A stretch of 64,000 nt of DNA, taken from Oscillospiraceae bacterium. GTDB taxonomy: Bacteria; Bacillota; Clostridia; Oscillospirales; Acutalibacteraceae. Under the pieces are notes generated by a model. That model was given only the letters and a program-made list of their open reading frames with translations, made no database searches and was not told the DNA's origin. Position numbers and translations under genes: made by a program. The DNA is taken from assembly GCA_015066365.1 (NCBI GenBank), contig SVON01000002.1, forward strand, positions 62,001 to 126,000. Direction: 5' to 3'. The first letter of the stretch is position 1. Every line of letters begins with the position of its first letter. This document shows positions 4,568 through 22,670 of the stretch, one piece after another.

Positions 4568-4572
4568 ATTCA
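4568..4572. repeat. 5-bp target-site duplication, left copy (ATTCA)
   Basis: ATTCA immediately left of the TGT terminus; the same 5 bp lies immediately right of the ACA terminus at 20435-20439. Confidence 0.8.
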
Positions 4573-4735
4573 TGTTAAAAGACAATCCCAAATATCCTAA
4601 AAAAGACAATATTTAGTATTCTCTCAATAACACATAAATCACTGTAAATGTTCTATAGAAAAGCAACTATATTTTAGCCAATAGGATAATCAACTCAAAT
4701 GCCAATAAGCCAAGTAATATCAAGGGTTCCCATAC

Positions 4736-4766
4736 AGCCTGTGGGCACCATCGAGTGGGAATAATT
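4736..4766 (+). other. decoy guaA 3' end (agcctgtgggcaccatcgagtgggaataatt, encodes PVGTIEWE-stop)
   Basis: matches the 3' end of the real guaA (20441-20470 minus strand) with two mismatches. Confidence 0.9.
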
Positions 4767-4771
4767 TGGCA

Positions 4772-4814
4772 TAAAAAAAGCGCCCTTGTGATTGCTCACA
4801 AAGGCGACTTTTAT
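4772..4814. terminator. bidirectional intrinsic terminator inside left module
   Basis: aaaaaaagcgcccttgtgattgctcacaaaggcgactttt. Confidence 0.75.
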
Positions 4815-5011
4815 ATATGTCACAGGCTACGCAAATTTGTCTTTTTTAGACTATTGGCGTTTGTTTGTTGACATAGTCGCCTTCGAATAAATTATAGTGT
4901 ATTTCTCTCTAAGAGTCAACTAAAAAGAAAAAGTTGAGCATAATTAGTTGATTTTTCACCCATTTACCCCTTATAATAACTCTCCAATAATTTTTGAGTG
5001 GAGGGATGTAT

Positions 5012-5614
5012 ATGGGATGCAAAGTTATTGCAATGGCGTATATTGAACAGTGGTTTGGCGAGTTTGAAAAGGGTAACTTGTATGCTCTTGCTACCAGAGC
5101 TGGCGTAGGTAAAACTCACTTTGTTTTAGCTCTGGCTGGACACTGGGCAAAACTTGGTCGCAAAACTCTCTACATTAGTGACTCTATGAATGAAGAAACC
5201 TTTGAAAGAAGGTTAACTTCTCTCGAACCGTACTACCACGAGAATGTTGATTTTAAAGAGTGTTATAAGCTCACGATTGAAAGACTCTCCCAGTGGTTGG
5301 ATGCCAATAATTATGACTTGGTTGTTTTGGATACTTTTGATTTGTATTGCTGGAATGTTGACATTGGAGAGTTGAAGGAATTGGCTAAAGAAAAGGGCGT
5401 TTGTGTATGGCTTACCAAAAGCCTTCCCTTTAGTGAAGAACCTATCAACCTGTCTCATCTTCACTTTCCTAATGAAGAAATCAAGGATAAGTTCATTGCC
5501 TATACAGATATGATTTTGTGTGGATATCGTAACCTCGAACACGACTCCGTTTGCCTGCGAGCACTCAAGAACTTGACAGGCGTTTTTGGTCAAGAATTAG
5601 AACTTCATAAATAA
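5012..5614 (+). CDS. RecA/DnaB-like P-loop ATPase (stand-alone)
   Basis: Walker A ATRAGVGKTHF, Walker B YDLVVLDTFDLY; GGAGGG RBS 7 nt upstream of ATG 5012. Confidence 0.6.
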   Translation: MGCKVIAMAYIEQWFGEFEKGNLYALATRAGVGKTHFVLALAGHWAKLGRKTLYISDSMNEETFERRLTSLEPYYHENVDFKECYKLTIERLSQWLDANNYDLVVLDTFDLYCWNVDIGELKELAKEKGVCVWLTKSLPFSEEPINLSHLHFPNEEIKDKFIAYTDMILCGYRNLEHDSVCLRALKNLTGVFGQELELHK

Positions 5615-5615
5615 C

Positions 5616-5650
5616 AAAGAGGGCATCACATTGATGCCCTCTTTTATTAT
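5616..5650. terminator. bidirectional intrinsic terminator between convergent genes
   Basis: aaagagggcatcacattgatgccctctttta. Confidence 0.8.
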
Positions 5651-8600
5651 TTACACAACGCCAAAATACTTCTCGAAGAAAGCCATTAGCTTATCAATGA
5701 TACCCTGTTTCTTGTTGGCACGGTTGCCACCACCAAAGCGAGACACAGGAGGCATCAACTTATCAATATCGGTGCCAGTGGTCTTCACAGAGCCATCACG
5801 GAAAGCATTTTCAATATACTTTCTTGTCTCTTCTTCCTTGAGGTTCTCTTCGGCAATTAGTGTCGTTAGGTCGGTTTCCTTTTGCTCTAAGACGAACTTT
5901 CTCCAATCTTGGCTAACATCGGTCTGAGCGTTAATGGTGGCGATAAAGCTATCAATCAGCTCTTTCTTAGAACGCAACTCAATACTGGATTTGATAGCTC
6001 GGTCAATGGCGATTAGGATTTCCTTATCCTCACAATTAGACTGGTGGTACTTGGCAACAAGCATCAAGATGTAATCAATGTTCACCTCGATTTGTTTGAC
6101 CAATTCCATCTCAAAGACAATATCATCGTCAATGTTCTCAGCCTGTGCTTTGGGACGGAACTCCATATACAAGTCATTGTAGAGACCAGTATAGTTTTGC
6201 ATATCCATCGGAGAAAGAATCTCGTTACCTGCAAAATCATCAAAGGTGGACAAGATATTTCTCAATCTCAAGATATTACCAAAGGCAACAATGAACTCCT
6301 TCTTGGCTTTCTCACCCAGGATGTCCTGACCCAGGGGATACTTTTGGATAAGCTCGGCAATACGCTCTTCATAGCCTTTTTGATGCTTACCATCCTCATC
6401 ATAGCCATAGTAATAGTCATCGTAGGACTTGAGCAAAACGATACCAGAAGCATTCTTATCGCCAAATAGAGCAATAGCATCATCAGTCTCTTTTTGCAAG
6501 TCTCTAAAGCAAATGATATTACCAAAGGTCTTCACAGAGTTTAAGATGCGATTGGTTCTGGAAAATGCCTGAATCAATCCGTGTTGTCTCAAGTTCTTAT
6601 CTACCCAAAGAGTGTTCAAGGTAGTGGCATCAAAACCAGTCAAGAACATATTCACAACAATGAGCAAATCCACTTCACGATGCTTCATTCTCAAAGACAA
6701 GTCCTTGTAGTAATTGGGGAACTTCTCACTGGAAGTATCGTAAGCAGTGTTGAACATCTCATTGTAGTCCTTAATAGCTTTGTCAAGGAACTCACGAGAG
6801 GTCAAATCCAGACCATCCGTGTTGTCGGATTCCTCATCATCAATAAAGCCATCAGGGTCATCCTCATTTTGACCATAGCTATAGATAGTGGCAATCTTGA
6901 TTGCCTTTTCAGGATGCTCGGCCATTTGTCTCTGGAACTCCATATAATACAACTTTGCCGCCTCGATAGAGGACACCGCAAAGATGGAGTTGAAACCATT
7001 TAGTTTGACCTTGAGTTTCTCTTCCTTGGCATCTTGATTCTTAGCCACGGCCTCAATGTTGGTTAGTTTGCTATAGGTGTAGAAACCTGTGTTTCTCTTG
7101 GTTTTATGGTCAAAGTGGTCAAGGATATATTCGACAATCTCAGAGATGCGCTTAGGTGCTAACAAAGCCGACTCCGTATTGATAGCCTCTACCTTTTTAT
7201 CCTTGCCCCCCTCCTTCTTCTTGACCGTGTTTACATAGTCAATTCTAAAGGGAAGAACATTGCCATCATTGATAGCATCCACAATGGTATAAGTGTGGAG
7301 CTTGTCGCCAAAAGCCTGCTCAGTAGTACGCAGGTTGGGGTTGCCACCACTCTTCGCATTCTTGGCAAAAATGGGCGTGCCTGTGAAACCAAAGATGTGA
7401 TAGTTCTTGAAGAACTTAGCAATCTTGATATGCATATCACCAAATTGGCTACGGTGGCACTCATCAAATACCAAAACAATGTGCTTGTCCAAGACAGGAT
7501 GCTTGGGGTTCTTGGTCACAAAGTTGTCCAACTTTTGAATGGTGGTAACGATGATTTTATACTCGTGAGGGTTGCCCTTGGCATCCAAGTCCTCCAGTTG
7601 TCGTTGCAACACCTTGGTGCTCTTGTTACCATTAGCCGCACCACGCTCAAAGCGGTCATACTCTTTCATTGTCTGATAGTCAAGGTCTTTTCTATCTACA
7701 ACAAAGAGCACCTTGTCAATGTAGGGTAATCTCGATGCCAATTGAGCCGTCTTGAACGAAGTGAGAGTCTTACCACTACCAGTGGTGTGCCAAATGTATC
7801 CACCTGCATCGGTTCTTCCCAACTTCTTATAGTTGGTGGAGACCTCAATGCGATTGAGGATGCGCTCGGTGGCAACAATTTGGTAGGGACGCATCACCAA
7901 CAAGAGATTCTCACTGGTGAGGACACAATACTTGGTAAGAACATTGAGCAAAGTATGCTTTTGGAAGAAAGTGCGAGTAAAGTCCACGAGGTCGGGAATC
8001 ACCTTGTTATTGGCATCCGCCCAGAACGAAGTGAACTCAAAACTACTACTGGTCTTTTGAACTTTCTTCTTGCCATCCCGCTCCTTGATAGCACTTACAC
8101 GAGTGGTGTTGGAATAGTATTTGGTGCGTGTACCATTGGAGATGACAAACAATTGCACATACTCATACAAACCACTACCAGCCCAGAAGCTATCTCTTTG
8201 ATAACGCTCGATTTGGTTGAACGCCTCTTTTAGAGCAACGCCACGGCGCTTAAGCTCAATATGTACCAACGGGAAACCATTAACCAATACCGTAACATCG
8301 TATCGATTGTCATAGTTGCCACTATTCTCTACATATTGGTTGATGACCTGCAAAGAGTTGTTGTGGATGTTCTTCTTGTCAATTAGGGTGATGTTCTTAC
8401 TGGTGCCATCATCACGCTTTAAGACCTGCACATTATCCTCTTGGATAAGACGAGTCTTCTCCACAATGCCATCATTGCCATTGGCTAAGCACTGGGTAAA
8501 GAAACGATTCCACTCATCATCGGAGAATTGATAGTTATTGAGTTTTTCCAATTGCACTCGCAGGTTCTCTACCAACTCATCCGAATTGTGGATTTGGAGA

Positions 8601-8749
8601 TAGGTATAACCTTGCTCGGTCAATTGCTTAATAAAAGCGGCTTCAAGAGCAGCCTCACTTTGATACGCATCAGAGCGAGTCAATTGAGGTTCGTATTCGG
8701 ATACAACAGTCGCTTCCGAAGTGGAAACGATGATATTATATTGGCTCAT
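5651..8749 (-). CDS. hsdR: type I restriction enzyme R subunit (HsdR)
   Basis: DEAD-like helicase motifs (TGSGKTLTSFKTAQL, VFDECHRSQFG, FGFTGTP) and N-terminal nuclease region (NRYDVTVLVNGFPLVHIELKRRG). Confidence 0.95.
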   Translation of the reverse strand: MSQYNIIVSTSEATVVSEYEPQLTRSDAYQSEAALEAAFIKQLTEQGYTYLQIHNSDELVENLRVQLEKLNNYQFSDDEWNRFFTQCLANGNDGIVEKTRLIQEDNVQVLKRDDGTSKNITLIDKKNIHNNSLQVINQYVENSGNYDNRYDVTVLVNGFPLVHIELKRRGVALKEAFNQIERYQRDSFWAGSGLYEYVQLFVISNGTRTKYYSNTTRVSAIKERDGKKKVQKTSSSFEFTSFWADANNKVIPDLVDFTRTFFQKHTLLNVLTKYCVLTSENLLLVMRPYQIVATERILNRIEVSTNYKKLGRTDAGGYIWHTTGSGKTLTSFKTAQLASRLPYIDKVLFVVDRKDLDYQTMKEYDRFERGAANGNKSTKVLQRQLEDLDAKGNPHEYKIIVTTIQKLDNFVTKNPKHPVLDKHIVLVFDECHRSQFGDMHIKIAKFFKNYHIFGFTGTPIFAKNAKSGGNPNLRTTEQAFGDKLHTYTIVDAINDGNVLPFRIDYVNTVKKKEGGKDKKVEAINTESALLAPKRISEIVEYILDHFDHKTKRNTGFYTYSKLTNIEAVAKNQDAKEEKLKVKLNGFNSIFAVSSIEAAKLYYMEFQRQMAEHPEKAIKIATIYSYGQNEDDPDGFIDDEESDNTDGLDLTSREFLDKAIKDYNEMFNTAYDTSSEKFPNYYKDLSLRMKHREVDLLIVVNMFLTGFDATTLNTLWVDKNLRQHGLIQAFSRTNRILNSVKTFGNIICFRDLQKETDDAIALFGDKNASGIVLLKSYDDYYYGYDEDGKHQKGYEERIAELIQKYPLGQDILGEKAKKEFIVAFGNILRLRNILSTFDDFAGNEILSPMDMQNYTGLYNDLYMEFRPKAQAENIDDDIVFEMELVKQIEVNIDYILMLVAKYHQSNCEDKEILIAIDRAIKSSIELRSKKELIDSFIATINAQTDVSQDWRKFVLEQKETDLTTLIAEENLKEEETRKYIENAFRDGSVKTTGTDIDKLMPPVSRFGGGNRANKKQGIIDKLMAFFEKYFGVV

Positions 8750-8765
8750 ATTTTAAATCCTTCCA

Positions 8766-10274
8766 TCAGGAATTTAGAATTTCTTCTATCATTGGCTCAA
8801 CACCTATATTCTTGATGTCCTCAATTAGGTGTTGTGCGGAAAATCTTCCGACATCCCATGCAACAAAGCGCAATATATTAGCGGCAGTTTCGTTTACTAC
8901 ATATGGAAAACCACTACAAAGCACATCATACGAAAAAGAAGCAAATGGGTCATATGCTTCGTAACTTCTGCCGCAAACCTCCTGATATGATTTATCGACG
9001 CTTTGGATAATATGCAAAGCGTGTTCTTCGCTGGTTTTCATAAAAGAAATTAAGACCTCTACAAATCCTTTTTTGTGATGTAAAATCGCTGTAGATATTT
9101 TTTCTGCACTTAAATCATAGATAAACCCTTCAACCTCATCATCAAAGATTTTCCTGGAAATTTTTTCATTTATTCTTTCCTGATTTTCCGCATTTTGTTT
9201 ATAGGCTACTGTTTTTTCGAAAAAGATGGATAATTGACTTGCATCGGCATAACGATATGCGGCATCTGAATTTGTGGCTTTTTCTGCAACACTTCTGTAA
9301 ATATGATGTGAGTTTCTGGGGTCTCCTGTCATAATAAAGTTAATCACACGACCAAGAGAGTATACATCACTTCGCTTATCACCGTCTTTGAGCATCATAA
9401 ACTGCTCTGGTGCACAATAATAAAACTGTCCTACCGCGTGGGTGTGCATCGTTTGATGGGAGGTAAATACATTCAAGTCTTTTCCCAAACCAAAATCAGC
9501 AATTTTTATCATGCCAGAATTAATAAAGATGTTGTTAGCACTAATATCACGATGGATAATATCGCGTTTATGTACTTCCGTCATAATATGCAGAATTTGC
9601 CGAATACAAGTCAACTTTATTTCTTCCGATAAGGTGTTGTATTTAACATACTTTTCTAAAGTCGTTTCAGCATATTCCATCGTATAAGAGCAGTTTCCTT
9701 CGTCAAACGAATAAACTTCAATAATGCCAAATGCATCCTGCAAAGATTTCGTGATGTTGTATTCTCTCTTGAAACGGCTTCTTATACCAGCATCAGTCAA
9801 ATAATCGTCTTTGAGTTTCTTTACTACTAAACCTGTAGATTTCTGCCGATAAACATTAGCGAACCCACCATTTCCGATTGGTTCTAAATCATCATTTTCC
9901 TTAACAAGATGATAGCGACCGTTATTACGAGTTATTTTGCATAAATCTCTATGGAGAATATGGTTGAATTCGGCGTATATGCGTTCGCTTTTTTCTGCGG
10001 CTTCTACTTCGGATAACGCCTGTTCCTGCATTAAGTAGTTTTTGCCAAGGACAATACTAAAAAACCTATCAATTTGACGACTGTTAATTAAATCCACAAG
10101 TTTATCGTGAACATATGCCCACCTTGACGGAAACCCAGATTGATAGACATCTTTAGTCCCGAAATTGGAGTTAAAGAACTCTACAAGTTTATACCCCTGC
10201 TTATATGTGTAAAAGCCTTCAGTATCTCCACAAAAAATATTTGAAATCTCTTTCAGCGAATCTGAACTAATCAT
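8766..10274 (-). CDS. Ser/Thr protein kinase with N-terminal AbiJ-NTD-like region and C-terminal unknown domain
   Basis: IGNGGFANVY loop, VVKKLK, HRDISANNIF, ADFGLGKD, APEQF, DVYSLGRV; N-term FCGDTEGFYTYKQGYKLVEFFNSNFGTKDVYQSGFPSRWAYVHDKL resembles AbiJ N-terminal domains (recalled, not searched). Confidence 0.85.
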   Translation of the reverse strand: MISSDSLKEISNIFCGDTEGFYTYKQGYKLVEFFNSNFGTKDVYQSGFPSRWAYVHDKLVDLINSRQIDRFFSIVLGKNYLMQEQALSEVEAAEKSERIYAEFNHILHRDLCKITRNNGRYHLVKENDDLEPIGNGGFANVYRQKSTGLVVKKLKDDYLTDAGIRSRFKREYNITKSLQDAFGIIEVYSFDEGNCSYTMEYAETTLEKYVKYNTLSEEIKLTCIRQILHIMTEVHKRDIIHRDISANNIFINSGMIKIADFGLGKDLNVFTSHQTMHTHAVGQFYYCAPEQFMMLKDGDKRSDVYSLGRVINFIMTGDPRNSHHIYRSVAEKATNSDAAYRYADASQLSIFFEKTVAYKQNAENQERINEKISRKIFDDEVEGFIYDLSAEKISTAILHHKKGFVEVLISFMKTSEEHALHIIQSVDKSYQEVCGRSYEAYDPFASFSYDVLCSGFPYVVNETAANILRFVAWDVGRFSAQHLIEDIKNIGVEPMIEEILNS

Positions 10275-10288
10275 GTTATCTCCCTCAA

Positions 10289-11443
10289 TTATGCTGGTTC
10301 AAAGGTTAGCAACTTGTCACGGTAATACTCATATTGTTTCTGTCTTGCTTCAATCTCGGCAGGAAGACCTGCGGAAATATCGTTGCAGAGAGCATCAAAT
10401 CGTTCCAAAATTTCAACAATTCGCTCCTGCTCTTCAATAGGTGGAACGGGTATCTTCGCTTTCAAAATATTATCGTTGTACAGTCTGGCAATAGTACCGC
10501 CTGTTGAGATTTGCCACGGTTGCTTTTTGTAGCAATAAAACAGATATTTGTTGGTGACGATTGTGCCATCGTGTTCTAACCATACGATATTAGAATCTTG
10601 GAAATAAGCAGGTTCACCGTCAAAAACAACAGTTCTTCCAATTGTACCAGAGCAAGAGATTAGAATATCGCCCTTTTTAGGGTATGAATACTTTGCTCGG
10701 AACTCCTCAAACAACTCTTCGGTAATATAAGCATCAGGGGCCTTGCCAAAGGTGCCGATTTTATAAAAAGGAATACCACCCGTTTTGTTAGTTTGCTCTT
10801 TTAAAATTCTTTTGCACATCTTTACGGAACCGATTTCACCAAGAGTAAGCATTTTTACATTATCGCCGAAGTTCATCAGGTGTTCGGTATAATAATCGTA
10901 CTGCTTTTTTCTCGCTGTAAGCTCCGCTGTAAGCTCCGCTGTAAGCTCCGCTGTAAGCTCCGTGAAATTGTCCAATATACGGACAATTTCACATTGAACC
11001 TCAATGGGGGGTACAGGGATTTTGATTTTACCCATAACATTGCTCATTAACTTTGGGTTCCCCATTCCACTACTTACATACTTGGGAGCCTCAACAGACA
11101 ATGTGTAGTACAAAAATCTAAGAAGCAAATGAGGTGTATTTACTTTAAGAAGCCCACAAACATTCGTTACGCTAAACTTTCCTGTTCGATAGAATACGGT
11201 TCCTGCATTTGCTCCATCAGTAGTCCAAGTTAAATACTCTCCGTCATACATATAGGTGTTTATCTTTCCCAGTTCGCCATTGTTTTCAGTCTGAGAAGAA
11301 TAAACAGGATAGTTACCCGCATTTTGTTGGATAAAATCCTTAGATATTACTCGGCCTCTAGAAATTTCGCAAACATCCGCAACTTTCTTATACTCAACCC
11401 CACTCGGACACAATTGATTTACTAACTCTTCGTACTTGCTCAT
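10289..11443 (-). CDS. hsdS: type I restriction specificity subunit (HsdS), two TRDs
   Basis: two TRD halves with IPVPPIE and central/distal conserved helices; TAEL repeat spacer. Confidence 0.95.
   Translation of the reverse strand: MSKYEELVNQLCPSGVEYKKVADVCEISRGRVISKDFIQQNAGNYPVYSSQTENNGELGKINTYMYDGEYLTWTTDGANAGTVFYRTGKFSVTNVCGLLKVNTPHLLLRFLYYTLSVEAPKYVSSGMGNPKLMSNVMGKIKIPVPPIEVQCEIVRILDNFTELTAELTAELTAELTARKKQYDYYTEHLMNFGDNVKMLTLGEIGSVKMCKRILKEQTNKTGGIPFYKIGTFGKAPDAYITEELFEEFRAKYSYPKKGDILISCSGTIGRTVVFDGEPAYFQDSNIVWLEHDGTIVTNKYLFYCYKKQPWQISTGGTIARLYNDNILKAKIPVPPIEEQERIVEILERFDALCNDISAGLPAEIEARQKQYEYYRDKLLTFEPA
10914..10961 (-). repeat. 4 x 12-bp perfect tandem repeat in hsdS encoding (TAEL)n
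   Basis: gctgtaagctcc repeated four times in perfect tandem. Confidence 0.97.
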
Positions 11444-13005
11444 TATTGCACCTCGATTTCCGCAATAATCTTGCTAATCTCAGTGCGCAATACATTTTCA
11501 CGAGCAACAATCTCTTCGATATGAGTGTTCAACTCTACAATGTTGATAACCTCTCGGGTATCTTCCGCCTCGACATAGGTGCTAACGGACAAGTTATAGT
11601 CGTTTTCTTTAACCTCAGCATAAGAAACCAACCGAGCAAAGTGGTCTTTGTCTTCACGGCTGGCATACTCATTCACAATGTTGTCAATGTTCTCAGGAGT
11701 TAACTTATTATTGTTGGTTATCTTAATGCACTCATTGGTGGCGTCAATGAAAAGGATGTTGTTATCCTTTTTGCCTTTCTTTAACACCAGAACACAAGTG
11801 GCAATAGAAGTGCCATAGAATAAGTTGCTGGGCAACTGGATAACGCAATCCACATAGTTGTTATCAATCAAGTATTTGCGAATCTTTTGCTCAGCGCCAC
11901 CACGATACATAATGCCAGGGAAAGTAACAATAGCAGCCGTACCATTGGAAGCCAACCAAGAAAGGCTATGCATAATAAAGGCAAAGTCTGCCTTGCTCTT
12001 GGGTGCCAAAACACCAGCAGGCGCAAAACGAGGGTCATTGATAAGGGTGGGGCTATCATCGCCCTCCCACTTGATAGAATAAGGGGGATTGGAAACGATG
12101 AGCTCAAAGGGTTCATCATCCCAATGGGCAGGATTCAACAAGGTGTCTTCACAAGCCACATTGAACTTATCAAAACCCACATCATGCAGGAACATATTGA
12201 TACGACACAAGTTAAAAGTGGTGATGTTGATTTCCTGACCAAAATAGCCCTGACGAACGCCCTCTTTGCCCAAAACGCTCTGAGCTTTCAACAACAAAGA
12301 ACCAGAGCCACAAGCAGGGTCATAAACTTTATTGACTTCGGTCTTGCCTACCGTGCCAATACGAGTGAGCAACTCAGACACATCGGAGGGGGTGAAGAAC
12401 TCACCACCAGACTTACCTGCATTAGAGGCATACATCGTCATCAAATACTCATAGGCATCACCAAAAGCATCGATGGCGTTGTCCTTGTATTCCAACTTCA
12501 TCTCAGCAATGCCATTGAGAATCTTGACCAAGCGTTCATTTCTCTTGGCAACCGTGCCACCCAGTTTGTTGCTATTCACATCAAAGTCGGCAAACAAACC
12601 TGCAAAGTCATCCTCGGCCTCGCTACCCTTAGCACTATCTTCGATATTGTTAAAGACCCGCTCCAGAGTCTCATTCAAGTTCTCATCCAAGGGAGCCTTA
12701 GCACGAACATTGCAAAACAACTCAGAGGGACGAATGAAGAACCCCTTTTCCTCTATCAAGCCAGAACGAGCTTCCTCAGCATCAGCATCCGACATCTTTG
12801 CATAGTCGAAAGTAGTGTTACCTGCCTCAATTTCACCTGCATTGATATAGGCAGTAAAGTTCTCGGAGATATAGCGATAGAACATAGCGCCGAGCACATA
12901 GTTTTTAAAGTCCCATCCATCTACTGCGCCACGCAGGTCATCAGCAATTGCCCAAATGGCACGATGGAGTTCGGCTCTTTCTTGCTCTTTTCTCTTATCA
13001 ACCAT
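11443..13005 (-). CDS. hsdM: type I restriction modification N6-adenine methyltransferase (HsdM)
   Basis: NPPYSIKW motif, DPACGSGSLL SAM motif, N-terminal HsdM helical domain. Confidence 0.95.
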   Translation of the reverse strand: MVDKRKEQERAELHRAIWAIADDLRGAVDGWDFKNYVLGAMFYRYISENFTAYINAGEIEAGNTTFDYAKMSDADAEEARSGLIEEKGFFIRPSELFCNVRAKAPLDENLNETLERVFNNIEDSAKGSEAEDDFAGLFADFDVNSNKLGGTVAKRNERLVKILNGIAEMKLEYKDNAIDAFGDAYEYLMTMYASNAGKSGGEFFTPSDVSELLTRIGTVGKTEVNKVYDPACGSGSLLLKAQSVLGKEGVRQGYFGQEINITTFNLCRINMFLHDVGFDKFNVACEDTLLNPAHWDDEPFELIVSNPPYSIKWEGDDSPTLINDPRFAPAGVLAPKSKADFAFIMHSLSWLASNGTAAIVTFPGIMYRGGAEQKIRKYLIDNNYVDCVIQLPSNLFYGTSIATCVLVLKKGKKDNNILFIDATNECIKITNNNKLTPENIDNIVNEYASREDKDHFARLVSYAEVKENDYNLSVSTYVEAEDTREVINIVELNTHIEEIVARENVLRTEISKIIAEIEVQ

Positions 13006-13115
13006 ATCGCAAAATCCCCCAATTTTCGAATTCTAAGCCCAGTATAGCACCAAATCACAAATAACTCCAGTATTTTTTATATTTAAATATACAACACACA
13101 AAAACTAATAAAAGA

Positions 13116-13155
13116 TAAAGGGATGCGAATCAATCATCGCATCCCCTTTTTATAA
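13116..13155. terminator. intrinsic terminator between hsdM and serine recombinase
   Basis: aaagggatgcgaatcaatcatcgcatccccttttt. Confidence 0.75.
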
Positions 13156-13226
13156 ATAATTTAAAATTTAATTTTCGAAAAAATTAGGTTCCTTTTTCAC
13201 ACAAAAGTATATGAGAAAGAGTTGAT

Positions 13227-13898
13227 TTACGCCATCAACTCTTTTTTGTATTTATAGAAGCTATTGCGAGACACACCACACAATTGCATAACTTCACCAT
13301 CATCCAAAGAACCACCAAAAGAACGAGAGTGCTTGAGGATAATCGCCTTGGCCTCTTTGCTTTTTTGGGTTTCCACGGTAGTTCCAGTAGTTCTGCCCAA
13401 TACCGTTCCATTTTCCTTAGCAACCTGCAACCCTTCTTTAACACGAGTTCGCAAAAACGACACTTCTTTTTCAGCCTGTTCAAAAGCTAACTTGATTTGC
13501 TCTCTTGCCAAAGCCATAAGGTATTTATTTACGCCTTCGATGATAAAGTCTACATTCGTGCCTGTTTTAGAAATGGTGCTATCCAATGCACACTGATAGA
13601 CCGAAGTGTTGATATGCGGTTCTTTCAAGAAGACTAAGGCCACTCCTTTTTTGTAAAGTTCTTCGTAGATTTGGAAACCTTCTTCGGAATCTCTACTCAT
13701 ACGACTAACCTCATCAAACACAATGGTGTCACCGCTTTGCACTTTTCTCATCAACTTCATCCACTCAGGTCTATGCATTGATGTTCCAGTAAAAGCTTCT
13801 TTGATAATGATGGCCGTCGGATATGCCCGCAGAACATTTTCAATTTGACGAGAAAGGTTCTGGCGTTGTGTGCTGACCCTGCAGTAGGAAAAAATCAT
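13227..13898 (-). CDS. serine recombinase (resolvase/invertase family, TniR-like)
   Basis: MIFSYCRVSTQRQNLSRQIENVLRA catalytic N-terminus; VFDEVSRMSRD; C-term HTH (CGVSRNSFYKYKKEL). Confidence 0.9.
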   Translation of the reverse strand: MIFSYCRVSTQRQNLSRQIENVLRAYPTAIIIKEAFTGTSMHRPEWMKLMRKVQSGDTIVFDEVSRMSRDSEEGFQIYEELYKKGVALVFLKEPHINTSVYQCALDSTISKTGTNVDFIIEGVNKYLMALAREQIKLAFEQAEKEVSFLRTRVKEGLQVAKENGTVLGRTTGTTVETQKSKEAKAIILKHSRSFGGSLDDGEVMQLCGVSRNSFYKYKKELMA

Positions 13899-14235
13899 CT
13901 TAAACCTCCAAAATACAAGTATCAAATTAGACATTCGGACCAAAAGTATTAAACTAATGTGCTTTTAAACACTTTTAGGGTTGTTTCTTTAAAAAACACA
14001 GTACCAAATTGAACTTTTGTTTAAGTTGGTAGCGCAAACAGGTATCTCTCCGTTTCTTGTATGGTTGAACAAGCACAATTGCAAAGCCGTCCTTTTGTGC
14101 AAATTGTAGATTTTTTGATGTTTTGAAAAAATTTTTGAAAAATCGCCTTTTTTTGCATTTTTGCATTGTATATCACTTTGAAATCGATGAGATGTTTACA
14201 AAATTCAAACATTTTTAAAACAAGGAGACAACAAA

Positions 14236-15057
14236 ATGAGCGCAAGAGAAACAAATTTTCATCACACGAGTTCTAACTCAACATACTGGAGAACATTTGA
14301 TGAATGTATCAAGTTCGCAACAAGAATTCGCGCAAAGGTTTGGCGGTTATGTGAGAAAAAAGATTATTCGTGTTTAGGGATTATGGGTATCAGTGAAAAC
14401 GACAAAGACCAAGGGTCTGTCCAAGTTGGATATCGAGGATATAAACGGTTTGTGGGTAATAGTAAACAGGTTTACAAAACCAATCCTCACATTCATATGG
14501 TAACACTGGCAAACCCAGGAGAGAGTATTTCTCGCCAAATAACATCTTGGTTCACACATAACTCTGGAGGCAAAAACGCATTCCACAACAATTGCAACCA
14601 CTATTTACCTACGGCCGTCCATTATCTAATGGCGCAAAGTAAGAAATTCCGAACGGTAATGTATAATGTGGACAAACTCCCCAAAGAGGATGTTTACACA
14701 TTTTGTTGGTTAGTAGAGAAGGAGAATGTTCAAATGGGTGGAGTGAAACCCATCTTCAAAGGGTTGTCCGATGAGATTTTTTACTCTTTAAAAAACAACT
14801 TTGATGGTTCTCAAAATGAGGTGTTTACAAATGATTACGATGAAGACACCTTGAAACCCCTTGACATCACTGGGGAAAGCGCTATAAACACACCCTCTGA
14901 AACACTACAATGTAATATATGTGCCAACAACTATACTAACTACACTCACTATACAGGTAACACTTGCCACTATCCCCAATTAAGTAATCCCTTCACTATA
15001 TCATTAAGTAAGTCCGTTCACTCTTGTGATTCCATTCAAACTAACAACACTTCGTGA
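14236..15057 (+). CDS. hypothetical protein, possible HUH/Rep-like endonuclease domain with low-complexity C-terminus
   Basis: ORF with AAGGAG-type RBS; NPHIHMVTLANPG motif resembling HUH signature; Thr/Asn/Ser-rich tail. Confidence 0.5.
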   Translation: MSARETNFHHTSSNSTYWRTFDECIKFATRIRAKVWRLCEKKDYSCLGIMGISENDKDQGSVQVGYRGYKRFVGNSKQVYKTNPHIHMVTLANPGESISRQITSWFTHNSGGKNAFHNNCNHYLPTAVHYLMAQSKKFRTVMYNVDKLPKEDVYTFCWLVEKENVQMGGVKPIFKGLSDEIFYSLKNNFDGSQNEVFTNDYDEDTLKPLDITGESAINTPSETLQCNICANNYTNYTHYTGNTCHYPQLSNPFTISLSKSVHSCDSIQTNNTS

Positions 15058-15095
15058 ATACATACTACTAACTAAACTACTGGAGGTAACAAATA

Positions 15096-15605
15096 ATGTT
15101 TCTAACTAAACTTTTTCCTGTCAAACTATCTCACATCTGGAATGTGGAGCTAAATGTGGATGATTGTTCGGATGATGAATATTTTAGGAAAATCAAAGAA
15201 GTTTATCTTTACATCCAACAATACATAGACAATTGGATATCTCAACATCGCTATTTAGGCTTAAAGACATCTACAACTATCTATGTGGATATTGGCAATT
15301 ATTACATCTTGGATGATGAGGCGGTTCGATATCAACTCAAGCCTGTTATCCATATTGCTATTACTGAAGAAAACAAGAGTCGTGCTAAAGGATATTTCAA
15401 TGACTTGTTGAAGAGTAGCTTGCCTTGTTCCGTTACTTCTTATCCTGGGGTAGGCTCCATCCTTAATCACTCCAACAAGAAGATGTTGTTCAACAACACT
15501 CTCGTTAGTAAAACTTATAAAATATCAAGAGATTCTAAAGTGCGTATCATTGAGAAAAACAAACCGAAGTCTATGGTCTACAAATCTATAGCTAAGCCAA
15601 TGTGA
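15096..15605 (+). CDS. hypothetical protein (169 aa)
   Basis: ORF with GGAGGT RBS, in tandem with the upstream ORF. Confidence 0.55.
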   Translation: MFLTKLFPVKLSHIWNVELNVDDCSDDEYFRKIKEVYLYIQQYIDNWISQHRYLGLKTSTTIYVDIGNYYILDDEAVRYQLKPVIHIAITEENKSRAKGYFNDLLKSSLPCSVTSYPGVGSILNHSNKKMLFNNTLVSKTYKISRDSKVRIIEKNKPKSMVYKSIAKPM

Positions 15606-15638
15606 ACACTCTATTGAAATGGCTTTTTCTCATAATGG

Positions 15639-16661
15639 TTATGTTGACCGATGCAATCGGTTCTTCATTAACACTTTACAATAATCGTAGGCCATGCCTT
15701 GTTTCTCTGAGATTTGCCTGTAGTTCATACCTTGGGCTTTTAGTTGAAGAATTTGATTGTCAAAGTCAACTATATGATTAGTGTTGATGGTTATATCTCT
15801 GGTCACTAACTCTGTAGCATCTATCCCCAAGAAAAAACCAAGCAAAGATACTTCAAAAGGATTTACTCTATAACCTGAAAACATCTTTTCTAATTGCCAA
15901 GCGTGTCCAAAGCCAAAAGTGTCCATATCTTTATAGAACTCTTGAAAGTCTTGGGATAATAGTTCAATGTATCTCTTTACTCCCCTTGGAGAGATATATT
16001 TAGTTCCCATCAATTTGTGATGAAGATATATGGGTGTGGGTATCTTTGATAAAGTATCTACTTGCATCACCTCGATAATATAGTCACTAAATGCTCGTTC
16101 TTGGTCATTTAGGCTTATTACGATGGGAGTGGTGTCTACACACTCCTCGGCAGTAATAAGTGCTGGTGGAGCATTAGAAAGCAAGGATATAGAGGATTTT
16201 AGTAAATGGCACTTATGTCTATGACAAATGGAAAGCTCTGGAATTTGATGAGAACGATGCCAATAAGTTTCTTGTAACTTCTCTCTATCTTCAAGAACAC
16301 ACAATGGGCAATATTTTAGCGAAAATCCTTTTCTCTCTCTATGCATAGGCAATACATTCACTAAGCTTTTCAAATCCATATTGTAAGCAATGTCTCGAGC
16401 CCTAACTTGCTTGTCTGGAGTGAGAAAAGCGCTATAGTAGTTTAGCATTGTATGGTTAGATATAAAAGTTTCGATGCCATCAATTTGATGAATCACATTA
16501 GGGGTGAGAGCGTTGCAAAATTCCATATTGGGTTTTACATTAGGATTTGCAAAAAGGTCTTCTGCGACACTTCGATAATGAACATAGCCACTTCTAACAA
16601 AGTATCTGCTCCATACACTATAAGCCAACTCATCTTCGTAAGGAGCGGGCAAAACTAACAT
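15639..16661 (-). CDS. tniQ: TniQ/TnsD-like target-selection protein
   Basis: TniQ start (LPAPYEDELAYSVWSRYFVRSG) and zinc-finger signature CPLC...WHRSHQIPELSICHRHKCHLL; overlaps tnsC-like ORF. Confidence 0.85.
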   Translation of the reverse strand: MLVLPAPYEDELAYSVWSRYFVRSGYVHYRSVAEDLFANPNVKPNMEFCNALTPNVIHQIDGIETFISNHTMLNYYSAFLTPDKQVRARDIAYNMDLKSLVNVLPMHRERKGFSLKYCPLCVLEDREKLQETYWHRSHQIPELSICHRHKCHLLKSSISLLSNAPPALITAEECVDTTPIVISLNDQERAFSDYIIEVMQVDTLSKIPTPIYLHHKLMGTKYISPRGVKRYIELLSQDFQEFYKDMDTFGFGHAWQLEKMFSGYRVNPFEVSLLGFFLGIDATELVTRDITINTNHIVDFDNQILQLKAQGMNYRQISEKQGMAYDYCKVLMKNRLHRST

Positions 16662-17839
16662 AGAGCAACAACCTCCACAATGATATGTTGTTTTAAATAT
16701 TCAATAGGCTTTTCACTTGCTTTAGCATCTATTGCAAAAGTAGAAAAGGGACAAAACACAGCCTCTCTTTTAATGGAGATGAATTCTTTTGTATGAGAAG
16801 ACTTTTTAGTCGTCAAAACTTTTCCGTTTTCATTGTATAAGTAATTGTGAAGCATCTGGAATCTTTGTTTGTAAGCCATTTCTAAAGTAGTCACATCAAC
16901 CCTCTCTAAATCACTCAAAATAGCAATTTCTTGTGCTGCGTGGAGTAACCCCACCACGATGGCCACAATGCCCTTAGAGTGCAAATACAACCATTCTACA
17001 AGGTGAGGAGTGAGCGCTGTGCGATGTCTGGTGTATTGGTATGTAAATAGTTCTTCACACAAGCTAATGAAGTTATCATCAAAGTCCATTTTAGAACACT
17101 CTAACCCCACTGAACGACGAGCTAAATGAAATGCTGATTCAAAGAACTTTTTACTTTCTGGCGTACCAACAAACACAAGAGAGATACCTGAGTTGTTGAT
17201 AAGTTGGACTAATCCACTTGCTAATGTTTTCCCATTCTTAGCGAGTAAGTTTTGGGCTTCATCAACCACTAATACACCAATGTGATTTAGGCACACTTGA
17301 GCCACCAAGCCAATGAGCAAATCTACCGTTGCACCAGTGCGAGTAGCATCTCGATAATAATGAGTCTCCAAAGCACTATCCACAAGTCTAATCACTTCTA
17401 ATAGCAATCCTTTTAAAGATGCATCACAAGGTGTTTGAACCACTAAAAAGGGGATAACACAAGCATCTTGCACTCCATTAGTTATGACACTTATTGCTCT
17501 ACTAATGGAGGAAGATTTTCCAACACCACTGGCTCCAATAATAGTGAAGGAGTCTCCCCCACCAATGATTCCGTCACATCTCACTTTGCTATGATTAAGA
17601 TAGCCTTGTTGGATAGTCTTTTTGTTTCTCTTCTTTTTCATTGCTCTAACATATGCAAGGTAGAGCTTAGTATAGATTTCACAAGTCATCGAAGTAGGAT
17701 GGAAAGCATCATACAAGTCGTTGAGTGCTAACAATCTCTCTTCACTTGTAGCATATCGAATACTCTCATCATAGAGAGGTTTGACTCTCAAAGCATCCAA
17801 CAACTTATCACCTGCTAACAAGGGCGTAATGTTTTCCAT
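16655..17839 (-). CDS. tnsC: TnsC/TniB-like AAA+ ATPase
   Basis: Walker A GASGVGKSSSISR, Walker B IGVLVVDEAQNLL, sensor FVGTPES; between tniQ- and tnsB-like ORFs. Confidence 0.88.
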   Translation of the reverse strand: MENITPLLAGDKLLDALRVKPLYDESIRYATSEERLLALNDLYDAFHPTSMTCEIYTKLYLAYVRAMKKKRNKKTIQQGYLNHSKVRCDGIIGGGDSFTIIGASGVGKSSSISRAISVITNGVQDACVIPFLVVQTPCDASLKGLLLEVIRLVDSALETHYYRDATRTGATVDLLIGLVAQVCLNHIGVLVVDEAQNLLAKNGKTLASGLVQLINNSGISLVFVGTPESKKFFESAFHLARRSVGLECSKMDFDDNFISLCEELFTYQYTRHRTALTPHLVEWLYLHSKGIVAIVVGLLHAAQEIAILSDLERVDVTTLEMAYKQRFQMLHNYLYNENGKVLTTKKSSHTKEFISIKREAVFCPFSTFAIDAKASEKPIEYLKQHIIVEVVALC

Positions 17840-17845
17840 TTCAAA

Positions 17846-19633
17846 TCATCCTTCAATGCGTTTTTTAATTCTCTCTTTTCGTCTCGTTGCACGAACATTT
17901 GAAGCATCAACTCCTTGTCTTTTAGGATGGACATTGGCGATAGCTTCAATATCTTTGACTAAAGCAATTCTTGCCTGCATACATTCTTCTTCAAAAGTTT
18001 TAGTGAAAGCCTTCTCTTCGTGCACTTGTTCCTTAGCTTCTTGAAAAGAGATATTATCAAAGCGTTTATCTATTAATGCAAACTTTGTGTATTCACCATT
18101 CTCATAAAGCCAAATATGAGAGGTTTGATTGGGGTCGTAAGCAACTACACAGTCTCCCCCAACTAAGAATCTCTCTGTAAAACCATTAGCAACATATCTA
18201 AGGTTCTTGAACACTAACCCTCTTCTTGTGAAAGTGCCGTTCCCTCGAGGGAACATCGTGAGAGTTAGTTGTTCTTTAGACACTTCAATTAAGTTTGCGC
18301 CAGGGTGCTTAAGAGAATAATTCCATATCTCATTTGAAAAAGGTTTTACACCATCACTAAAAAGCTCTTGAGAATATTGTTTAGCATCAAGCACTCTCTT
18401 CGTGTTGTAATAGAGAATACATTTTACAAGGATGGTTTCTAACTCATTAAGCGTTAAGCAAGCGTTTTGTCGATAGTCTTGAACTCCTCTCTCTTGAAAG
18501 TTAGGCTCAACCACACCATATGCTTTTAAATGGGGTTTAAACAAGTTTTGAATGACATTGAAGAATTGTTCTACCCTACTCTTCAAGTCTGGTCTAAAGG
18601 GTGGAAGATTGATAATACTGACACCTAAATCTGCAAGTTGTTCAAAGTTGCAAGAAGTGTATTCTCTACCTTTGTCGGTAACTAAAATGGCTGGGAGCTT
18701 ATCACAATTCCATTCATCTTTTTCAATGCAAATGCCAAGTGATTTGCAATGCTCTACTTTGTCACAAATGATATTCTCCATAAGGGATTTGAGACTATAG
18801 ACACCACCCTCCCAAGTGAGAGCATATCCACAACATAAACTCGTATATGCGTCAATACAAGTGGTAAGAATGGGTCTTCCAACCAACTGGCCTGCATCAT
18901 TGACTAAATAAATATCCAAGATAGTTGAATCAAGCATTCCTGTTCCAATGGAGGGGGCAAACTCTTGAACACCATCACCCAAGAGAGGTCGATGGTTTCT
19001 TTGATAATCACTTAGTCCATCGCGAGAGATATAGAGTGATTGTAACTTCTTAGTTTTGTTGAAGAAATAGCGATAACGATGGAAGGGTGGATAACCCTCT
19101 CTTAATTGTCCATTAGGGGTTGTATAACACTCTTTTAGCATAAGAGTGTAAGAACCAATAAGTGTGTGTTTTAAGGGCGAATAGTAGTATCTATTGAGCG
19201 CCCAACGAAAGTTCTTTTCATCATTGCTAAGAGGTCTTTTAGAGATATTTTTCAAGGGCACTAACCGACCAATATCTTGATAGGCTAAATAAAGACAAAG
19301 GTACTTGCGAACAGTTTGCTTTGTGACATTTTCTTTGTCTGCGATTTTAGCAATCAAGTGAGTTCTCATATAGTCATCGGAGACAAAAGGTAAAATAGGT
19401 GCAATCATTGTATATCTCTTGTGAGCTAAGCTCTTTTGCTCTTGAGAAAGCAAATCATATTGGGGTGTGTTGTATGCATTATCTCCTGACACAATCTCTT
19501 CTAACTCAAGAGTTTTAGGAATCCATTTAGGCATTGTTAAAGACTCACAATCAACGACTAACATCTTATTATTGGAGATGGCTAACACACGATGAATATG
19601 GTGGTTGCAAACCACCAAATCAAGTTCGTTCAT
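17846..19633 (-). CDS. tnsB: TnsB/TniA-like DDE (rve) transposase
   Basis: DDE core: LDSTILDIYLV, VTDKGREYTSCNF, FRPDLKSRVEQFFNVIQ; Mu-C like C-terminus. Confidence 0.9.
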   Translation of the reverse strand: MNELDLVVCNHHIHRVLAISNNKMLVVDCESLTMPKWIPKTLELEEIVSGDNAYNTPQYDLLSQEQKSLAHKRYTMIAPILPFVSDDYMRTHLIAKIADKENVTKQTVRKYLCLYLAYQDIGRLVPLKNISKRPLSNDEKNFRWALNRYYYSPLKHTLIGSYTLMLKECYTTPNGQLREGYPPFHRYRYFFNKTKKLQSLYISRDGLSDYQRNHRPLLGDGVQEFAPSIGTGMLDSTILDIYLVNDAGQLVGRPILTTCIDAYTSLCCGYALTWEGGVYSLKSLMENIICDKVEHCKSLGICIEKDEWNCDKLPAILVTDKGREYTSCNFEQLADLGVSIINLPPFRPDLKSRVEQFFNVIQNLFKPHLKAYGVVEPNFQERGVQDYRQNACLTLNELETILVKCILYYNTKRVLDAKQYSQELFSDGVKPFSNEIWNYSLKHPGANLIEVSKEQLTLTMFPRGNGTFTRRGLVFKNLRYVANGFTERFLVGGDCVVAYDPNQTSHIWLYENGEYTKFALIDKRFDNISFQEAKEQVHEEKAFTKTFEEECMQARIALVKDIEAIANVHPKRQGVDASNVRATRRKERIKKRIEG

Positions 19634-19970
19634 TAACCACAACACCCCAATCTACAATTCCCCTTTTGTGCCAATAGATATGCGAAGCATCAAGCAATCT
19701 AATGGTTCGAGGTTTTAACAATTTATCTTGTGTCACACACTCTCTCACGGCATAATCACCATCATTTTTGACAATAAGAAAGTCCGTGGTAAAAGCACCT
19801 TCCATATCTAATCCTGTGAGAGGAACATTACATTCAAAAGATACTATGGATTCATCTTCATCAAGCTTCTTGGCATAAGCAAATTGCACATCACTATAAG
19901 CTCGACAAACCTGCTCACATTTATTGAATTTATGTTTGATAACTCGAACATTACTCTTTTGATTGCGCAT
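19620..19970 (-). CDS. tnsA: short TnsA-like endonuclease (N-terminal domain only)
   Basis: position upstream of tnsB with overlapping frame; GAFTTDFLIVKNDGDYAVRECVTQDKLLKPRTIRLLDASHIYWHKRGIVDWGVV resembles TnsA nuclease core. Confidence 0.6.
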   Translation of the reverse strand: MRNQKSNVRVIKHKFNKCEQVCRAYSDVQFAYAKKLDEDESIVSFECNVPLTGLDMEGAFTTDFLIVKNDGDYAVRECVTQDKLLKPRTIRLLDASHIYWHKRGIVDWGVVVNERT

Positions 19971-20132
19971 AAAAATCTCCCTAAATTTGCTAAAAATCGA
20001 CTAAAAGCGAAGAAAAATCCCTAAAAACAAATCACTTTTATCATTTTTAGGGGCATTTTTAGAAAAATAGCGACTAAATCTATCAGTTTTAGAAAAAATG
20101 GACACTAAAAAAGTATTTTTAGAAAAACACTA
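19971..20132 (-). promoter_or_regulatory. AT-rich repeat array, candidate transposase-binding sites overlapping the tnsABC-tniQ promoter
   Basis: repeated TAGT(G/C)...TTTTTCTAAAA motifs on the minus strand (TAGTGTTTTTCTAAAAAT, TAGTGTCCATTTTTTCTAAAA, TAGTCGCTATTTTTCTAAAAAT, TAGTCGATTTTTAGC). Confidence 0.55.
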
Positions 20133-20296
20133 TGTTAAAAGACAATCCCAAATATCCTAAAAAAGACAATACTTAGTATTCTCTCAATAACACATAAATC
20201 ACTGTAAATGTTCTATACAAAAAGCAACTATATTTTAGCCAATAGGATAATCAACTCAAATGCTAATAAAGCCAGTAATATCAAGGGCTCCCATAC

Positions 20297-20328
20297 AGCC
20301 TGTGGGCACCATTGAGTGGGAATAATTG
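20297..20328 (+). other. decoy guaA 3' end (agcctgtgggcaccattgagtgggaataattg)
   Basis: 31/32 nt identical to the real guaA 3' end, including 3 nt past the stop codon; opposite orientation to guaA. Confidence 0.92.
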
Positions 20329-20332
20329 GGCA

Positions 20333-20374
20333 TAAAAAAAGCGCCCTTGTGATTGCTCACAAAGGCGACTTTTA
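20333..20374. terminator. bidirectional intrinsic terminator inside right module; minus strand has a 7-T tract facing guaA read-through
   Basis: aaaaaaagcgcccttgtgattgctcacaaaggcgactttt. Confidence 0.8.
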
Positions 20375-20434
20375 TATATGTCACAGGCTACGCAAATTTG
20401 TCTTTTTTAGACTATTGGCGTTTGTTTGTTGACA

Positions 20435-20439
20435 ATTCA
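20435..20439. repeat. 5-bp target-site duplication, right copy (ATTCA)
   Basis: identical to 4568-4572. Confidence 0.8.
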
Positions 20440-20440
20440 A

Positions 20441-21451
20441 TTATTCCCACTCAATGGTGCCCACCGGCTTCGGGGTCAGGTCCATCAGCACGCGGTTGAT
20501 GCCCTCCACCTCGCTGGTGATGCGGCCAACGATCTTATGCAATACGGGATAGGGGATCTCCTCGACGGTGGCGCTCATAGCGTCGGTGGTGTTGACCGCG
20601 CGGATGATGGCCGGCCAGCCCTCGTAGCGGCTCTCATCCTTGACGCCCACAGACTTGATGTCCGGGATCACCACGAAATACTGCCACACCTTCTCCGCCA
20701 GACCGCAAACGTCAAACTCCTCACGCAGGATGGCATCCGCCTCACGCAGGGCGTGGAGACGATCCCGGGTGATGGCACCCAGGCAACGCACGCCCAGACC
20801 GGGGCCGGGGAACGGCTGACGGTAGACCATGGCGTGGGGCAGACCCAAAGCCTCGCCCACGACGCGCACCTCGTCCTTAAACAGCAGCTTAATCGGCTCC
20901 ACCAGCTCAAACTGCAGGTCCTCCGGCAGACCGCCCACGTTGTGGTGGGACTTGACCGCCTTTTTACCCTCGGCCGCCTTGATGGACTCCAGAATGTCGG
21001 GGTAGATGGTGCCCTGTGCCAGATAGGTGATGTCCTCCAGCTTGCGGGCCTCATCGGCAAACACCTCGATGAACTCCTTGCCGATGATCTTGCGCTTACT
21101 CTCGGGGTCAGCCACGCCGGCCAGCAGATTCAGGAAGCGGTCGGTGGCGTCCACGTAGATCAGGTTGGCGTCCAGCTCGTCCTGGAACACCTTGATGACG
21201 TTCTCGGACTCGTCCTTACGCATCAGGCCGTGGTTCACGTGTACGCAGACCAGCTGCTTGCCGATGGCCTTGACCAACAGAGCGGCCACCACAGAGGAAT
21301 CCACACCGCCGGACAGGGCTAGCAGCACCTTTTTATCGCCTACCTGAGCGCGGATGGCCTCCACCTGAGCGTCGATGAACTGGTTGGCCAAATCAAAATT
21401 GACGATGCGCTCCATTTCTTCGGGGCGGATGTTAGCGTTGAAATCGATCAT
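20441..21451 (-). CDS. guaA: GMP synthase, ATP-pyrophosphatase subunit (no GATase domain)
   Basis: LLALSGGVDSSVVAALL PP-loop; C-term KPVGTIEWE; ORF begins directly at the ATP-PPase domain. Confidence 0.9.
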   Translation of the reverse strand: MIDFNANIRPEEMERIVNFDLANQFIDAQVEAIRAQVGDKKVLLALSGGVDSSVVAALLVKAIGKQLVCVHVNHGLMRKDESENVIKVFQDELDANLIYVDATDRFLNLLAGVADPESKRKIIGKEFIEVFADEARKLEDITYLAQGTIYPDILESIKAAEGKKAVKSHHNVGGLPEDLQFELVEPIKLLFKDEVRVVGEALGLPHAMVYRQPFPGPGLGVRCLGAITRDRLHALREADAILREEFDVCGLAEKVWQYFVVIPDIKSVGVKDESRYEGWPAIIRAVNTTDAMSATVEEIPYPVLHKIVGRITSEVEGINRVLMDLTPKPVGTIEWE

Positions 21452-21470
21452 TAATGGTCCCTCCCTTTTA

Positions 21471-22670
21471 TCAGTTGGTATAGTTATCAAAATAGCCCTG
21501 CACCAGCACGACGGGGGTGCCCTTGTCGCCGGAGCCGGAGGTCAGGTCGCACAGCGAGCCGATCAGATCGGTCAGCTGGCGGGGGGTGGTGCCCTGAGAG
21601 GCCATATTACCCACCAGATTCTCGTTCTTCTGACGGATGCTGTCCGAGATGGCCTGCTTCAGTTCTTCGCCGGACAAATCCTTAAAGTCGTTGTCCGCCA
21701 GATATTTCAATTTCAGCTCGTTGGGGGTGCCAACCAGACCGTCGGTATAGGCCGGGGAGACCACCGGGTCGGCCAGCTCCCAGATCTTGCCCTGGGGATC
21801 CTTAAAGGCACCGTCGCCATAGACCATCACCTCCACGTGCTTGCCGGTGGCGTCCATAATGCGCTTCTGGATATCCAGCACCAGGGGCTTGCACTCCTGA
21901 GGGAACAGTTTAACGGTGTCCTCGGTGGACTTGTTGGAACCCAGCAGACCGTAGGCAACGTTAAAGCCGCTGCCGTTCACCGAAGAGGTGAGAATATCGT
22001 CCAGACCGCACACCACCTTGGCCCCGGCGGCCTTGAGGATCCGCTTGGTGCGGGCACGGGTGTGAATGTCGCAGGTCAAGATGCAGTCGGCATAATCCAG
22101 AATGGCCCGGGGCTGGTTGGCGAAGAGGATCTCCACCTCGGCACCGGCCTCACGGATCAGGTCGCCGTAATACTGGACGTAGTCCACGCCGGTAAACTCG
22201 TGCACATTCTCGCCGAACAGCTCTCGGTATTTCTCCAGAGTCAGCACGTCGGAATAGGGGTTGATGCCGGCCTCGTCCAGCTGATCGTAGGTCAGCAGAT
22301 GGTTGCCCACCTCGTCGGAGGGATAGCTGAGCATCAGCACCACCTTTTTGGCACCCATAGCGATGCCCTTCAGGCAGATGGCAAAGCGGTTACGGGACAG
22401 GATGGGGAACATCACACCGATGGTGTCGCCGCCCAGCTTCTGCCGTACGTCCTCGGCAATCGCCTCGACGGAGGCGTAATTGCCCTGAGCGCGGGCTACG
22501 ATGGACTCGGTGATGGAAATCACATCCCGGTCGCGAAGAGAGAAGCCCTCGCTCTCGGCGGCGGCCAAAACGCTGTCCGCTACGATAGCGGCCAGGTCAT
22601 CGCCCTGGCGGATGATGGGGCAACGGATACCGCGGGATACGGTACCAACCAAACGCGTTGAATCTGCCAT
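21471..22670 (-). CDS. coenzyme F420-0:L-glutamate ligase-like (CofE family) protein
   Basis: TRLVGTVSRGIRCPIIRQGDDL...DVISITESIVARAQGNY and overall family resemblance. Confidence 0.7.
   Translation of the reverse strand: MADSTRLVGTVSRGIRCPIIRQGDDLAAIVADSVLAAAESEGFSLRDRDVISITESIVARAQGNYASVEAIAEDVRQKLGGDTIGVMFPILSRNRFAICLKGIAMGAKKVVLMLSYPSDEVGNHLLTYDQLDEAGINPYSDVLTLEKYRELFGENVHEFTGVDYVQYYGDLIREAGAEVEILFANQPRAILDYADCILTCDIHTRARTKRILKAAGAKVVCGLDDILTSSVNGSGFNVAYGLLGSNKSTEDTVKLFPQECKPLVLDIQKRIMDATGKHVEVMVYGDGAFKDPQGKIWELADPVVSPAYTDGLVGTPNELKLKYLADNDFKDLSGEELKQAISDSIRQKNENLVGNMASQGTTPRQLTDLIGSLCDLTSGSGDKGTPVVLVQGYFDNYTN

Follow-up and report, generated by a model that had tools for sequence, protein, structure and literature searches.

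Inverted guaA-end copies in the LTR-like terminal modules of a Tn7-like element

Introduction

Why would a transposon carry, inside both of its ends, a copy of the gene end beside which it has inserted? The question is raised by a 64,000-nucleotide stretch of an Oscillospiraceae genome (the window), in which a Tn7-like element lies a few bases past the stop codon of guaA. Each terminal block of the element holds a segment closely matching the 3′ end of that gene. A sequence-only reading had proposed that this segment might be an embedded attachment site, part of the element's design. Here we describe the element, its relatives and its ends. We favor, at a probability of roughly 0.6, an accidental micro-copy: a lineage-specific inverted guaA fragment that arose in one module, was copied to the second and probably has no dedicated role.

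The element and its boundaries

The element spans positions 4573–20434 (Table 1) and contains the Tn7-like gene set, comprising a tnsB DDE transposase, a tnsC AAA ATPase and tniQ, together with a tnsA. Its ends are also of the Tn7 type, with TGT...ACA outer edges, multiple repeats of the TnsB type and a target duplication of 5 bp, which is ATTCA here and TGAAA in family member G145. The cargo includes a type I restriction-modification system (5651–13005), with a Stk2-family serine/threonine kinase gene between hsdR and hsdS. None of the seven element ORFs matched a cas family and the Rfam scan returned no CRISPR family, so the element does not resemble a CRISPR-associated transposon.

Two ORFs adjoining tniQ (14236–15605; 273 and 169 aa) had no match in Pfam, NCBIfam or PADLOC. 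The guaA ORF encodes only 349 aa, and the N-terminal glutaminase domain is seemingly missing. Homologs of the serine recombinase were seen in some family members only, many of whose contigs are incomplete, and the resolvase was not retained as a conserved part of the family.

Table 1 Features of the element and its target in the window.
Feature	Position	Strand	Evidence
Target-site duplication ATTCA, left	4568..4572	.	Sequence reading; same as 20435–20439
Left terminal module, direct repeat, TGTTAAAAGACAA...TTGTTGACA	4573..4873	+	97% identical to right module; edge inverted repeats
guaA 3′-end copy, left module (29/31)	4736..4766	+	Assembly-wide match search, module comparison
Intrinsic-terminator hairpin, left module	4781..4806	-	Terminator/hairpin search
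Left core boundary ACA/TAGTCGCCTTCGAATAAATTATAG	4874..4904	+	Comparison with other members
Serine recombinase, resolvase N-terminal domain	13227..13943	-	Pfam PF00239, E=5e-23
tniQ, target selector, 340 aa	15639..16661	-	Pfam TniQ, E=2e-15
tnsC-like AAA ATPase	16655..17839	-	Pfam AAA_22 and TniB
tnsB-like DDE transposase	17846..19645	-	Pfam Mu-transpos_C; family alignment
tnsA-like protein, 116 aa, E63 to Q and K132 to V relative to Tn7 TnsA	19620..19970	-	Profile and alignments
Right core end, finishing at CACTA/TGT; probable TnsB sites in three TTTTTAGAAAAA-type repeats spaced 30 bp apart	20054..20132	+	Repeat search, member comparison
Right terminal module, direct repeat	20133..20434	+	Module comparison, inverted repeats
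guaA 3′-end copy, right module (31/32)	20297..20328	+	Match search, inverted repeat, shuffles
Intrinsic-terminator hairpin, right module, placed to end guaA transcripts	20342..20367	-	Terminator/hairpin search
Target-site duplication ATTCA, right	20435..20439	.	Sequence reading
Real guaA 3′ end, source of copy	20438..20469	-	Inverted-repeat pairing
guaA (GMP synthase ATP-pyrophosphatase part), target gene	20441..21490	-	ORF translation

The match to the guaA 3′ end

Within the right module lies AGCCTGTGGGCACCATTGAGTGGGAATAATTG, which is 97% complementary to the guaA end; in the left module the base following the matched segment also differs. Both copies are opposite in orientation to guaA. The best ungapped score between the right module and the guaA flank was 29, compared with a maximum of 9 in 60 shuffles, which rules out a chance match. 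Across the whole 1.6-Mb assembly, the two module copies and guaA itself are the only sites within three mismatches of the guaA end. Differences between copy and gene fall at wobble positions (CCG/CCT, ATT/ATC) or past the stop codon, and one of them, a G-to-T change giving CCT for the CCG of the host gene, is common to both copies. The two copies also carry different substitutions, which makes an assembly artefact an unlikely source. Both copies described in the sequence-only reading are thus upheld, including the further synonymous difference on the left.

Family and target site

Searches with TnsB found relatives in 1–2% of the genomes of the same family, order and class, at about 44–54% identity with a few near 33%, and at ten loci in IMG/VR. 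A 399-genome sample of the phylum contained none beyond the window's own genome. These searches found no close relative of the window element, the best being approximately 54% identical.

Six members are inserted beside a real guaA (the window, G353, G718, G893, L082 and G1083), with the right end 6–7 bp from the motif GAGTGGGAATA(A/G), although the end in G1083 is less regular. Together with the Pfam TniQ match, these six support the proposal that the window holds a Tn7-like element with a TniQ protein and the guaA 3′ end as its target. The 3′ ends of other conserved genes, nrdR and ppdK, appear by reading to be used in G429 and L109, respectively. In L109, near-perfect module inverted repeats lie at the 3′ end of the apparent ppdK (pyruvate phosphate dikinase). 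In IMG/VR, the sequences matching the guaA end proved to be guaA genes, and one of these (L082) adjoins another family member. The GAGTGGGAATA(A/G) motif was also found in G239, G600, G378 and G683, but there guaA is not adjacent; in G239, for example, the real gene is 12.9 kb away. Since guaA is a known site for tyrosine-integrase islands, the likeliest explanation is later entry of such an island at the guaA end.

Distribution and placement of the copy

Among the six guaA-site members, only the window element carries the copy. It was found in none of the 16 other fully read modules, five of which are at real guaA. Ten other family modules, including those of G353 and G718 at guaA, were compared with their own targets, and none held a target-sequence copy above shuffles. 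Reading the modules of G893, G1083, L082, L102, L108 and L109 likewise revealed no copy. Its junction sequence is absent from the rest of the 150 family genomes, and viral contigs contained no exact copy. With guaA-site members lacking the segment, an embedded attachment site as a design feature is not sustained.

The sequence-only reading had further suggested asking whether the segment is better conserved than its flanks, whether it tracks the host guaA allele and whether second elements have inserted in modules. The left and right modules differ at ten positions: two belong to the copy, the 164 bp preceding it account for the other eight, and the sequence after it has none, so the copy is no better conserved than its surroundings. 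The copy resembles the guaA of its own host more closely than that of any genus relative read, and TAATTG follows GGGAA in none of those relatives; even so, the allele is not tracked exactly (CCT versus CCG). No second element has inserted at the copy.

Comparison with G718 indicates how the copy is placed. A 30-bp stretch ending in GTAATATCAAGGG (83%, E=0.003), with CCATACAG after it, is common to the G718 and window modules. Past CCATACAG, G718 continues with ATAAACAAAAAAGACC and leads at once into the A-run of the terminator, whereas the window has the guaA segment followed by ATAAAAAAAG. Since the sequence before the copy is shared and G718 goes directly to the terminator, an insert is the best reading of the copy, and it looks like a discrete one of about 30–34 bp.

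Terminal modules and TnsA

LTR-like direct-repeat modules of approximately 302 bp form the two ends of the element, and both types of TnsB end are present in each module. Inverted repeats of 37 nt, TGTTAAAAGACAA... and ...TTGTTGACA, border every module, and the TGT...ACA edges mark the modules as the true element ends. In 18 members, the junction between the right core end and the module is conserved as ...(C/A)(T/A/C)(A)/TGT, mostly CACTA or CTCTA, and usually lies about 30 nt past a CCCAAAAAC-type repeat. Direct-repeat modules on both sides were seen in the window and in G145, whose modules are 100% identical over the 216 bp compared. Distant relatives whose modules are unrelated in sequence show this architecture as well, which rules out the modules being unrelated MITEs. 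Repeated end blocks are general to the family, and they are unusual.

Several members depart from a simple two-module layout. In G893, a left module meets the core on contig C59 and a right module does so on C49, with the guaA side found on C9. On C30 a second module, 95% identical, lies immediately outside with AAAA in between, which we read as a solo or tandem module. Contig C33 of G718 has two modules separated by about 5 kb, one intact and the other decayed, and similar core-left sequence follows each; this looks like stacking of cargo blocks at modules. The decayed module and core-left sequence there (L096, 12895–13053) lie approximately 5 kb inside the other module, with a 1509-aa ATPase-like gene between. 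The order core-right, module, core-left occurs in G885 (C70), L108 and L102, and the G302 contig overlaps itself within the module; these arrangements fit circles or tandem copies, with collapsed repeat assembly also possible. In G353 (L028–L029, L047–L049), half of a module lies 28.5 kb from the one on the guaA side and shows the same TCTGAAAT plus ATTCCCACTCG junction, which suggests that one site received two insertions, now separated by an island. In L102, a serine resolvase gene directly follows the core-left motif AACCTTGTAGTATTAGTATAC, about 900–1450 bp upstream of tnsB, and AACCTTGTAGTATTAGTATAC may be the res site of this gene.

When TnsA cleavage is lost, cut-and-paste transposition of Tn7 becomes replicative. 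In the literature on type V-K CAST and Tn5053, cointegrates are the outcome without TnsA. Profile alignment to Tn7 TnsA (1F1Z) indicated that of the cut-and-paste residues E63, D114 and K132, the window protein keeps only D114. Across a 17-member alignment, K132 is lost in all 17 and E63 is Q in 15. The TnsA residues and the direct-repeat modules together suggest replicative, cointegrate-type integration that would leave LTR-like ends. Replicative transposition from a one-module circle would give target duplication, module, core, module and target duplication, in that order.

Origin of the copy

Most likely, an inverted guaA fragment would have entered one module by short-range template switching, the right module and guaA being about 110 bp apart. 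Inverted orientation at short range is a signature of this process (PMC7202029, PMC8794818). The second module would have gained the fragment because the modules are copies of each other, either through replicative transposition of a circle of core plus one module or through gene conversion. The guaA copy is then probably without a dedicated role. Three points count against a micro-copy. No close relative was found, TnsB identity reaching at most about 54%, so its status as an insert comes from one distant module, that of G718. The shared CCT places the capture before the last module copying. Lastly, none of the three changes in the copies falls within the ACnATnGAGTGGGAATA core common to real target sites, an outcome that has a chance of about 0.15 and is compatible with retained function.

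A working TniQ site, at which bound TniQ would act as operator or sink, organise the transpososome or offer a portable landing site, would account for every shared target-core base being intact in both copies. We consider it unlikely, as the five other members at guaA do without the copy and conservation is no higher in it than in the rest of the module. The 31/32 identity and the position of the right copy, about 330 bp upstream of tnsA, fit such a site, as does a length similar to the 36 bp bound by TnsD of Tn7 at the end of glmS (PMC2918618). Tn7 target immunity blocks insertion near transposon ends (PMC11406308) and by analogy should bar insertion here, making a portable landing site unlikely while the element is present.

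A broader scheme for this Tn7-like family with LTR-like ends would have a circle of core plus one module integrate by replicative transposition of the module, which would leave direct-repeat modules, with recombination between modules later freeing the circle and leaving a solo module behind. In the window lineage the module would also carry a TniQ-readable copy of its target, and solo modules would thereby be marked as new points for landing or stacking. As a whole, this scheme is quite unlikely.

It is quite unlikely that the copy is the att core of a guaA-targeting tyrosine-recombinase island that once sat in a module, or its captured attR. Known islands do use guaA, such as Tn5801 with 11-bp repeats (PMC4844618) and GIsul2 with the core GAGTGGGA (PMC9376610), and second GAGTGGGAAT cores are present in G239 and G353. 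However, the cores shared in these genomes are about 12–20 bp rather than 31–32, and a search of viral contigs did not find the sequence adjoining the copy. Phage and plasmid matches to that sequence are weak and at chance E-values, and an origin from either was rejected.

We give almost no credence to a module small RNA with a 32-nt guaA guide for RNA-guided targeting without Cas proteins: the shared upstream stretch, guide-length match and hairpin do follow in succession, and the module folds better than shuffles (z -3.2), but the surplus folding comes mostly from the terminal inverted repeats and the terminator, other guaA-site members have no such guide, Rfam gave no match at gathering strength, and the right module showed nothing resembling a promoter or a terminator on the plus strand. 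A coding role for the mini-ORF ending in PVGTIEWE is ruled out by a stop at that place in G718. Pairing of guaA mRNA with the copy as an RNA hairpin gives a strong fold (z -14.9) but was also rejected, since the right-module terminator lies between them and most transcripts should stop short of the copy.

The accidental micro-copy remains our preferred reading, and taken by itself the guaA segment is probably a curiosity. Greater value lies in the modules and the degenerate TnsA. They hint at a life cycle like that of LTR elements, with a cointegrate-type route, long direct repeats, solo copies and stacked cargo blocks; we found no description of such a Tn7-like life cycle in the open-access literature searched, the coverage of which was limited. 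If true, it would offer a simple way for defence islands to be built at guaA, and it would allow the reason for keeping a dead TnsA to be tested directly.

Comparison with known systems

The window element resembles Tn7 (TnsABC+D, attTn7/glmS) in its TnsA, TnsB, TnsC and TniQ genes, TGT...ACA ends, 5-bp duplication and insertion just past the end of a conserved gene. Unlike Tn7, it uses guaA rather than glmS and inserts 6–7 bp from the conserved stop-end motif, whereas Tn7 inserts about 25 bp downstream of the bound region. Its TnsA lacks two catalytic residues, and its ends are long direct repeats with both end types in each.

With the Tn5053/Tn402 family and type V-K CAST, which are replicative and have no TnsA, the element shares a presumed absence of 5′-strand cleavage and a serine recombinase. 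It differs in keeping a dead-looking tnsA, in having no Cas12k and in a resolvase not found in every member. In IS26 translocatable units and pseudo-compound transposons, an inserting circle with one mobile end-block leaves direct repeats of that block on both sides. The window element may be analogous in its directly repeated end-blocks, though its blocks encode nothing and TnsB, TnsC and TniQ act from the core. Finally, the tyrosine-integrase islands Tn5801 and GIsul2 use the same guaA 3′ end, with its GAGTGGGA core; those islands enter by site-specific recombination within the gene end, whereas the window element is placed by transposition beside the gene.
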